Below, piece by piece: positions 5,776-17,227 of a stretch of DNA of 48,287 nucleotides. The first letter of the stretch is position 1. Every line of letters starts with the position of its first letter. The stretch lies in the IMG/VR virus record IMGVR_UViG_3300030108_001826, positions 1 to 48,287 of that record. One strand, written 5' to 3'. This stretch comes from a virus. Below the pieces are notes generated by a model that did no database searches, was not told the origin of the DNA, and was given only the letters and a program-made list of their open reading frames with translations. Position numbers and translations under genes: made by a program.

Positions 5776-6048
5776 CTATGTATCAGTTGTTTCCGTTTCT
5801 TTTTCTGTGTTTTTTTCAGGTAACAGAGCTTCTTTACAGTTTACAAGTTGTTCTTTAATTACTGTTTCTAAGCTATCTTTACTATATTGTAAAGCGTCTA
5901 TTATCACATTCAAATGTGACACTCTTGTAACATTACTTTCTATTAACATTCTGCTTTGTTCTTTAGAAACTTTTTGAGTTTCATAAGTGTCAAATACATT
6001 TGGTATGACCTTTCCGTTTTTATCTTGTTTTGGAAATCTGATTATCAT
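5776..6048 (-). CDS. Hypothetical protein upstream of primase-helicase
   Basis: A 90-residue protein, MIIRFPKQDKNGKVIP, with a helical middle and a glutamate/threonine-rich tail (EKETETTDT). A strong GGAGGA ribosome site precedes the ATG and only 10 bases separate it from the SSB gene upstream. The acidic, presumably flexible C-terminus recalls proteins that touch other replication factors, but I recognise no domain. A-rich codons near the end form an A AAA AAC heptamer; a shift there would stop within nine codons, so I do not propose frameshifting. Confidence 0.68.
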   Translation of the reverse strand: MIIRFPKQDKNGKVIPNVFDTYETQKVSKEQSRMLIESNVTRVSHLNVIIDALQYSKDSLETVIKEQLVNCKEALLPEKNTEKETETTDT

Positions 6049-9887: not shown

Positions 9888-10112
9888 TTATAATCTAGCA
9901 AAAAAGTCAAGGACTAAATCATTAGGCGTATATCCCCAGCGATTAAGCTCTCCAAGACAATCTAAGAAAAACTCAGCGTCTTTTCTAAGTTCTGCTATCA
10001 AAATATCTTTGTCAGAAGTTTTCTTAAATACAGCATTATAATTATCATGCTGAAAGTTAAAGAATAAATCTGAAACATTCAAGTTGATACGAACTATTTG
10101 CTTTATTTCCAT
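9888..10112 (-). CDS. First leftward gene from the divergence region; hypothetical
   Basis: A 74-residue protein, MEIKQIVRINLNVSDLFFN, with mixed charge and a C-terminal NRWGYTPNDLVLDFFARL. GGAGG sits 5 bases before the ATG at 10112; a longer frame to 10202 lacks a ribosome site. It is transcribed alone between the control region and a terminator, a position often held by a regulator or an early anti-host protein. No helix-turn-helix is evident, so its role is open. Confidence 0.65.
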   Translation of the reverse strand: MEIKQIVRINLNVSDLFFNFQHDNYNAVFKKTSDKDILIAELRKDAEFFLDCLGELNRWGYTPNDLVLDFFARL

Positions 10113-10134: not shown

Positions 10135-10154
10135 AGTGTTCTACATGGAACACT
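10135..10154. promoter_or_regulatory. 20-bp palindrome in the leader of the first leftward gene
   Basis: AGTGTTC (10135-10141) and GAACACT (10148-10154) are perfect inverted arms around a 6-base centre. They lie between the putative leftward -10 (10184-10189) and the ribosome site. This could be a repressor operator or an RNA hairpin. The spacing does not match the LexA boxes I know. Confidence 0.5.
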
Positions 10155-10183
10155 ATCTACAATATTTAAACTACACGATACAC

Positions 10184-10213
10184 AATATAAATCAAGCAAC
10201 AATTATGTGACAA
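10184..10213 (-). promoter_or_regulatory. Candidate leftward early promoter
   Basis: On the minus strand TTGTCA (plus 10208-10213) and TATATT (plus 10184-10189) are separated by 18 bases. The -35 box falls within the first TGTGACA half-site of the phased array, so a protein bound there would block it. It would give a leader of roughly 65 bases including the palindrome at 10135-10154. Confidence 0.5.
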
Positions 10214-10403
10214 ATGTGACAGTTATGTGACAAATATGACAAAACTATGAATTTAATTTTTATGACCTATACCTCCAATAATTGTCTATCTGTCCTTAGA
10301 ACTTAATACAGAGCCTCCTATGATGATTATGACAATACAATGACATTTATGTAACAATCTTGTAACAATTCTTTTGTGACAAATATGTGACATTTTTTTG
10401 ACA
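10206..10403. repeat. Helically phased array of TGTGACA half-sites
   Basis: Eleven direct copies of TGTGACA or close variants (TGTAACA, TATGACA, TTTGACA). The first four start at 10206, 10215, 10226 and 10235, forming two 20-bp units. The other seven start at 10328, 10339, 10350, 10361, 10375, 10386 and 10397, all 11 bp apart except one step of 14. All point the same way. The array spans the gap between divergent promoters and its end copies contain their -35 boxes. It looks like a cooperative operator or an iteron-type origin. No repressor gene is identified. Confidence 0.8.
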
Positions 10404-10425
10404 ATTTTGTTGCAATTAATATTTA
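10398..10425 (+). promoter_or_regulatory. Candidate rightward early promoter
   Basis: TTGACA (10398-10403) with a 16-base spacer to TATTTA (10420-10425). The -35 is consensus and coincides with the last half-site of the phased array; the -10 is weak. A transcript from here meets an intrinsic terminator at 10513-10549. Confidence 0.4.
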
Positions 10426-10512
10426 CTTGTTACATAATAATAACAACATAGCGATATGTCATAAAACGATGTTAGTGACGATTATTTTTAATCTTTCATG
10501 TTTTACTCCTTT

Positions 10513-10549
10513 CCTGGTTTAGACTTTTAGTTTAGACCAGGTTTTTTTT
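10513..10549 (+). terminator. Rightward terminator or attenuator ahead of the early genes
   Basis: CCTGGTTTAGAC (10513-10524) pairs with GTTTAGACCAGG (10530-10541) as a 12-bp stem with two G-U pairs and a 5-base loop, followed by eight T. It lies before the first rightward gene (10615), so it ends a short leader RNA or attenuates read-through. No open reading frame lies between the array and this hairpin. Confidence 0.75.
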
Positions 10550-10614
10550 GTCACAAAGTTTGACTTTCTTTTCTTTTTGATATTAGACTAACAACTTAAA
10601 TTTTTAGGAGAAAT

Positions 10615-10911
10615 ATGAAAAGAATAATAATGATTTCACTTTTATCTGACGCTAGATTTAAAGCATACGATATGTTGGAAACTCATTTCTCAAGACATGA
10701 TAAGGGTGTGGTTGCTTACGATTTAGGTAGCACTTTGAAAAGTCTTTTGCGAGGGTTGAAAAAACTTGGAGTAGGAGGTAAGTCAGAATATCAAATAGAC
10801 CATCACAGCTTTATGAACTGTCAGGCATACGGATTTAAAACTAGATATTGTGCAGATAAAATTTTATTTGAGGCTTTAGAAATATTATGTCCAAATGAGT
10901 TTGAGGAGTAG
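10615..10911 (+). CDS. First rightward early gene; hypothetical
   Basis: A 98-residue protein, MKRIIMISLLSDARFKAYD, with a helical N-terminus and a basic middle segment (LLRGLKKLGVGGKSEYQID). AGGAG precedes the ATG. It follows the terminator at 10513-10549 after 65 bases. A poor TTGACT-like -35 exists in that gap, but no convincing promoter. No family recognised; position suggests an early host-takeover gene. Confidence 0.65.
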   Translation: MKRIIMISLLSDARFKAYDMLETHFSRHDKGVVAYDLGSTLKSLLRGLKKLGVGGKSEYQIDHHSFMNCQAYGFKTRYCADKILFEALEILCPNEFEE

Positions 10912-16388: not shown

Positions 16389-16514
16389 ATGCCAATGCAT
16401 AAAAAAAGAAAATCTATGGCTAAAGGTAGAAAATCTATGGCTAAAGGTAGAAAATCTATGGCTAAAGGTAGAAAATCTTACGCTAAAGGTAGAAGAGTAA
16501 CAAGAAGAAGATAA
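16389..16514 (+). CDS. Protamine-like peptide of KSMAKGR heptad repeats
   Basis: A 41-residue peptide, MPMHKKR, then four tandem copies of KSMAKGR (the last KSYAKGR), then RVTRRR. At DNA level this is a 21-bp tandem repeat at about 16405-16490. GGAGG lies 7 bases before the ATG. It has no acidic residue and a charge density like protamines or histone H1 tails, so DNA condensation in the head is a reasonable guess. Copy number may vary between relatives by slippage. Confidence 0.6.
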   Translation: MPMHKKRKSMAKGRKSMAKGRKSMAKGRKSYAKGRRVTRRR

Positions 16515-16517
16515 GTC

Positions 16518-16546
16518 TTGAAAAATTTGTTATATTTTTGTAATAT
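16518..16546 (+). promoter_or_regulatory. Internal promoter, possibly for a leaderless transcript
   Basis: TTGAAA (16518-16523), 17-base spacer, TAATAT (16541-16546). The next start codon (ATG 16553-16555) begins 6 bases after the -10, where transcription itself should begin. No ribosome site precedes that ATG. Confidence 0.5.
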
Positions 16547-16552
16547 AGATAC

Positions 16553-17227
16553 ATGTCATATTTAATGAGTAACATTCCACACTTTTGGTGTTGGGTTCGT
16601 AGGGAATTTACCCATAATCATTTACAATATCATGGTGAGTTTATACATGCTTTAGCTATTGCAGTAAACACTATACCTGATAGGTCATTAAGCTTCCAAG
16701 TTGTTTTTACAGGCAACGAGGTTGATAAAGAAGATTGGAAAGAAGGAAATATACATGGTGGTGCTATGTGGGCTAGAATGCCTATTCAAGGTATTGTAGC
16801 TGACATACCTGTTGATGAGTGGGCTTTACCAATGGAAAACCATTTAGTTCAGCCTTGGGATTGCGAGTCTAGAACTCATTCAGTAGTTGTTCTTGATAGA
16901 ACAAGTTCATCTCCTTGGATTGCTAAAATAGATGGTAATTTTTATAAAGCTAAATATTTGTTTACTGTAGATTATACAGACCATTCTATAGCAGATGACC
17001 CTGCTCAACATAAACAATCTCATGTATTATATATTACAGAAGACTGTCCTTGGAAAGGTAATTTAGTTGCTTTACCAAATAACAGAGTTAGAGTAACAAA
17101 TCCAGCTCTTTGGACTACAGGAGAAGGTCCTCCAGACTTTCTACCTTCACAATGGTTACATTCAGCAGAAGGACATGAAAGTTATATGAATCCAGATGTT
17201 ACATTTAATAATTTATATAAAAAATAA
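16553..17227 (+). CDS. Conserved-type phage protein of unknown function, 224 aa
   Basis: A Trp- and His-rich protein, MSYLMSNIPHFWCWVRREF, with GNIHGGAMWARMP, an IPVDEWALPMENHLVQPWD segment and a C-terminal PDFLPSQWLHSAEGH. I remember related hypothetical proteins upstream of the large terminase in marine podoviruses. The compact, mainly beta composition suggests a structural or decoration role, but no function is known. It has no ribosome site and a promoter that would start transcription at its ATG. Overlaps the next gene by one base. Confidence 0.7.
   Translation: MSYLMSNIPHFWCWVRREFTHNHLQYHGEFIHALAIAVNTIPDRSLSFQVVFTGNEVDKEDWKEGNIHGGAMWARMPIQGIVADIPVDEWALPMENHLVQPWDCESRTHSVVVLDRTSSSPWIAKIDGNFYKAKYLFTVDYTDHSIADDPAQHKQSHVLYITEDCPWKGNLVALPNNRVRVTNPALWTTGEGPPDFLPSQWLHSAEGHESYMNPDVTFNNLYKK

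Follow-up and report, generated by a model that had tools for sequence, protein, structure and literature searches.

What protein recognises the DNA between the two gene arms of this phage, and which arm would it control? The question is raised by eleven TGTGACA-like half-sites at 10206-10403, in a window of 48,287 bases that spans a whole IMG/VR virus record. The phage is of HMO-2011 type, and its portal shares 59.5% identity with the portal of Pelagibacter phage HTVC115P. The leftward arm encodes a Cas4-type exonuclease, a PolA-type polymerase, a primase/helicase and an SSB-like protein, and the rightward arm encodes terminase, portal and structural genes. No pstS was recognised in the window, Rfam and tRNA scans gave no match, and a DNA search of the array region against the phage collection gave none either. 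The preliminary description of this locus had recognised no phage repressor, in agreement with a scan of 44 small window proteins that found no regulator family, most small proteins being without assigned function.

All eleven same-direction half-sites of that description are present, at the same positions and with the same steps. They form two leftward-pointing groups on the minus strand: array 1 (10206-10241; TGTCATA, TGTCACA, TGTCACA and TGTCACA), with starts at 10206, 10215, 10226 and 10235 and steps of 9, 11 and 9 bp, i.e., two 20-bp units, and array 2 (10328-10403; seven TGTYAYA-like half-sites), with starts at 10328, 10339, 10350, 10361, 10375, 10386 and 10397 and steps of 11, 11, 11, 14, 11 and 11 bp (11, 11, 14, 11, 11 and 11 in minus-strand order). 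This is the densest TGTGACA cluster of the window: positions 10166-10612 hold 12 such words with at most one mismatch, a count never approached in 2000 dinucleotide shuffles (mean 1.75, maximum 6). Because TGTNACA is nearly palindromic, the direction of the array was decided from the variable positions, which make the minus strand the informative one, with TGTCAYA pointing leftward; the minus-strand consensus of the eleven copies is TGT(C9/T2)A(C7/T3/A1)A, where TGT and the middle A are invariant (11 of 11). Degenerate extra copies lie 11 bp past the last half-site (TGTTGCA, 10408-10414) and 11 bp past the first (TGTTGCT, minus strand, 10195-10201, between the leftward -35 and -10).

The pitch is 11 bp in six of the nine within-cluster steps, the remaining ones being 9, 9 and 14 bp. 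A single helical period for all eleven half-sites was rejected, as none fits: the common phase is broken by the steps of 9 and 14 bp and by a 93-bp gap, and the helical phasing proposed earlier holds inside the sub-trains but not across the whole array. Elsewhere in the window, isolated TGTHAYA pairs with an 11-bp step, possibly due to chance, occur at 5915-5932 (minus strand) and 16528-16545 (plus strand), the latter ending 8 bp upstream of an open reading frame at 16553, and a 21-bp tandem repeat of four copies, 95% alike, spans 16407-16494 (AGAAAATCTATGGCTAAAGGT).

The last leftward half-site of the array carries the -35 (TTGTCA, 10213-10208) of a putative leftward promoter proposed from its match to the consensus (TTGTCA-18-TATATT, 10184-10213, minus strand; -10 at 10189-10184; 10 of 12 positions). 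The first leftward gene encodes 74 aa (9888-10112, minus strand; ATG at 10112-10110, AGGAGG at 10122-10117), and its leader contains, just upstream of the ribosome site, a perfect 7-bp palindrome (AGTGTTC-TACATG-GAACACT, 10135-10154) that may be a hairpin or an operator. On the other side, TTGACA is present at 10398-10403, but the promoter scan gave it no acceptable -10. The case for control of the rightward arm by the array is therefore weaker than for the leftward arm: in place of a promoter with TTGACA there is a weak candidate, TTGCAA-17-CATAAT (10410-10438, plus strand; 9 of 12 consensus matches), and a strong intrinsic terminator with a 13-bp stem and a T run (10513-10541, plus strand; fold z-score -4.1) lies ahead of the first rightward gene, an open reading frame of 98 aa (10615-10911, plus strand). 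A leader or small RNA of about 100 nt may arise between the candidate rightward promoter and this terminator. A search with the 98-aa protein found no relatives.

The array was compared with the promoters of SAR11 genomes, which were reached with a 16S probe from the literature. SAR11 pstS promoters carry a TGTMAYA triple with 11-bp steps, 51-69 bp upstream of the start codon, where T is frequent at position 2 of one half-site. A matrix built from 22 distinct SAR11 pstS promoters alone, and run on both strands of the 48-kb window, places its five best matches all inside the array, the top-scoring one in array 2, with a best score of 8.2 elsewhere; it prefers the minus strand, on which the two best array scores (21.9 and 21.3) both lie. 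Across 118 SAR11 genomes, the exact TGTMAYA triple has 15 matches, not all independent because the set includes closely related genomes, against none for a reversed control. Thirteen fall in the pst operon (11 between pstS and pstC and 2 upstream of pstS, by coordinate comparison), and the other two lie near aquaporin genes. In a group of SAR11 genomes (L476 at 1501-1529 and similar loci), a perfect triple Pho-like box sits between pstS and pstC and not before pstS. A phoB gene scores above the family cut-off in 28 of 41 SAR11 genomes, although the host of this phage may not be SAR11, and one SAR11 PhoB is 49% identical to that of E. coli, with the segment RTVDVHIRRLR unchanged. The spelling differs at position 4 of the half-site, where SAR11 boxes prefer A and the phage array C. 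Searches for three copies of exact TGTCACA in 398 Pseudomonadota genomes and of TGTCAYA in 297 SAR11 genomes found none, and TGTCAYA gave one match in 385 Alphaproteobacteria, beside a gene without assignment; the exact spelling of the phage was therefore not found in a host box.

Among viruses, the exact TGTGACA triple with 11-bp steps was found in 53 contigs. In one of them (L204) it lies directly upstream of a phage pstS, and viral pstS loci were therefore surveyed. Of 39 distinct upstream regions, 18 have a triple that scores at least 18 of 21 and is aimed at pstS, compared with 0.13% of shuffles, which links the same word, in phages, to a phosphate gene. In many phage-borne pstS genes (L385-L454), a TGTHAYA triple box stands 26-45 bp upstream of the start codon. 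TGTGACA arrays are also found inside the replisome-organiser/initiator genes of other phages (L175, L201), so the word alone proves nothing.

Relatives of the window were anchored on the small terminase gene. Arrays are present in L105, L110, L112, L117, L123 and L151, all from the terminase search, as well as in L191, L215, L217, L218 and L221; L179, L188, L196 and L209 are near copies of L112, while L117 groups with L189 and L217 with L202. Some of the other relatives were found by the array pattern itself, and no frequency can be derived from the array-bearing set. More than one train per contig occurs in L112, L151, L191, L215, L218 and L221. The trains are nearly always aimed along the leftward (replication) arm, including its internal operons; that of L217/L202 points in the opposite direction, 54 bp upstream of an open reading frame. 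The preliminary description had looked to relatives for conserved words and spacing, and both the words and the 11-bp step do recur there with drifting spacers, but not universally: trains are missing from L084, L086, L102, L103, L119, L132, L152, L157 and L161, and the array is absent from the ten cultured pelagiphages examined (HTVC008M in part only), HTVC115P, 103P, 104P and 033P included, none of which could serve as a positive control. The suggestion that a protein covering the array would shut both arms at once finds no support, given the polarity of the sites, their mostly replication-arm orientation in relatives and the weak rightward promoter. The trains of L112 (3409), L123 (3432), L105 (116), L191 (8106), L221 (116), L151 (4765) and L110 (4150) are followed by a conserved leader, TTTTGTAGTTAGGAGTGAGCC, which may comprise a ribosome site and a small open reading frame starting with GTG. 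Six half-sites in perfect 11-bp register also occur in a phage without detectable relation to the window proteins (L220, 1579-1640; also L219).

A comparison of four array-bearing with five array-lacking genomes yielded no gene whose presence convincingly follows that of the array; the leftover candidates look, in our judgement, like antisense shadow frames or tail genes. Because no gene tracks the array and no regulator family occurs among the 44 small proteins, a host factor, already named earlier as a possible partner, fits best. The earlier idea of an operator-like array for a protein binding in multiple copies and overlapping the leftward -35 is likewise supported. Judged from its sequence and its recurrence, the 10206-10403 array is a real, polar operator array of the Pho-box kind, and we consider it reasonably probable that it serves a host OmpR/PhoB-type response regulator as a compound operator resembling a Pho box. 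The tandem half-sites would bind this regulator, most probably PhoB, and, being mostly 11 bp apart, would allow successive winged-helix domains to line up head to tail along the same face of the DNA in each sub-train. Aimed at the promoter of the leftward early/replication arm and overlapping its -35, they would let host phosphate status, via PhoB phosphorylation, set the strength of that arm; PhoB binding, action on the leftward promoter and phosphate dependence are what we infer from these comparisons.

Either activation or repression of the leftward arm is possible. Activation is the usual role of PhoB, and several relatives have an activator-like geometry, while the position of the last half-site on the leftward -35 makes repression possible as well. 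In the E. coli phoA register, the last half-site lies 16 nt upstream of the -10, and in several relatives the -10 likewise begins 16 nt after the last TGT. The distance in the window is 23 nt, not 16, which places the last half-site on an ordinary -35. As no 16-nt offset is apparent in the pstS promoters of either SAR11 or phages, this distance lends weak support and does not strictly define a Pho box.

An operator for a protein other than PhoB that coordinates both arms, be it another host OmpR-family regulator or a phage repressor among the small proteins, is a possible but less probable explanation. SAR11 genomes encode several PhoB-like regulators, most of the small proteins of the phage lack a functional assignment and 9-bp steps are atypical of PhoB; yet in SAR11 the triple occurs almost exclusively in the pst operon, and no gene is common to the array-bearing phages and missing from the array-lacking ones. 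Somewhat less probable still is a role as origin iterons recognised by an initiator protein; the preliminary description had offered iterons as an alternative. The cumulative GC skew is lowest at 10.0-10.5 kb, the repeats run in one direction in an AT-rich gap, and the TGTGACA repeats of the L175 and L201 origin iterons also share one direction; those iterons, however, lie inside an initiator gene with irregular steps, and no such gene was found in the window, where no Rep- or O-type initiator occurs among the proteins scanned and the replication genes are PolA and primase/helicase. Divergent transcription also yields a skew switch, and in several relatives trains precede two or more different leftward genes, where iterons would be expected at a single site per genome. 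Chance accumulation of words in AT-rich DNA might be invoked because single half-sites are common (the two strands of the genome have 40 and 55 TGTHAYA words), but it is refuted by the shuffles, none of which reached the observed count, and by the retention of word and step in relatives, and we give it almost no weight.

The Pho box is built of direct repeats of 11 nt, in which seven bases are conserved and four are loose, with CTGTCAT in E. coli (PMC4415409). The boxes of E. coli and of SAR11 pstS/pstC share with the array a TGTCA core, the 7 + 4 organisation, polarity and a location upstream of genes (PMC4415409). In contrast with bacterial Pho boxes, which precede phosphate genes, the array precedes phage replication-arm genes and has eleven half-sites, some steps of 9 or 14 bp and a -10 spacing of 23. 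Pho boxes of aquatic phage-borne pstS genes have the same triple word, the same 11-bp step and the same aim at the gene, but drive an accessory phosphate gene of which the window has no recognised copy. Control of phages by the host phosphate sensor is already documented in cyanophages: P-SSM2 pstS is under host-PhoB control, and the promoters of S-PM2d genes without obvious phosphate function, including DNA polymerase, bind host PhoB in vitro and so resemble the array in serving non-phosphate genes, replication included, although predicted cyanophage boxes are often unbound and box prediction alone is unreliable (PMC10976474). Those boxes read PyTTAAPyPy(T/A) and belong to T4-like myoviruses, whereas the array reads TGTCAYA and belongs to an HMO-2011-type podovirus.

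In SAR11, infection with phage HTVC027P increases pstABCS, phoB and phoU of the host (PMC12753301). In the literature searched, from which subscription papers were mostly absent, Pho boxes are not described for phages of the HMO-2011 type or of other heterotrophs, and the word "promoter" does not occur in the HMO-2011-type genome paper, which describes the group as dominant and widespread in the ocean (PMC9038755). A more tentative extension is that an abundant marine podovirus family without recognised phosphate genes has subjected several promoters of its replication arm to the host phosphate-stress regulator, so that the speed or occurrence of infection may be set by phosphate. If true, control by the host phosphate sensor would extend to HMO-2011-type phages and reach the replication arm, and the rule of polar TGTCAYA words at 11 bp would find nutrient-responsive phages in metagenomes and make nutrient-dependent infection testable.
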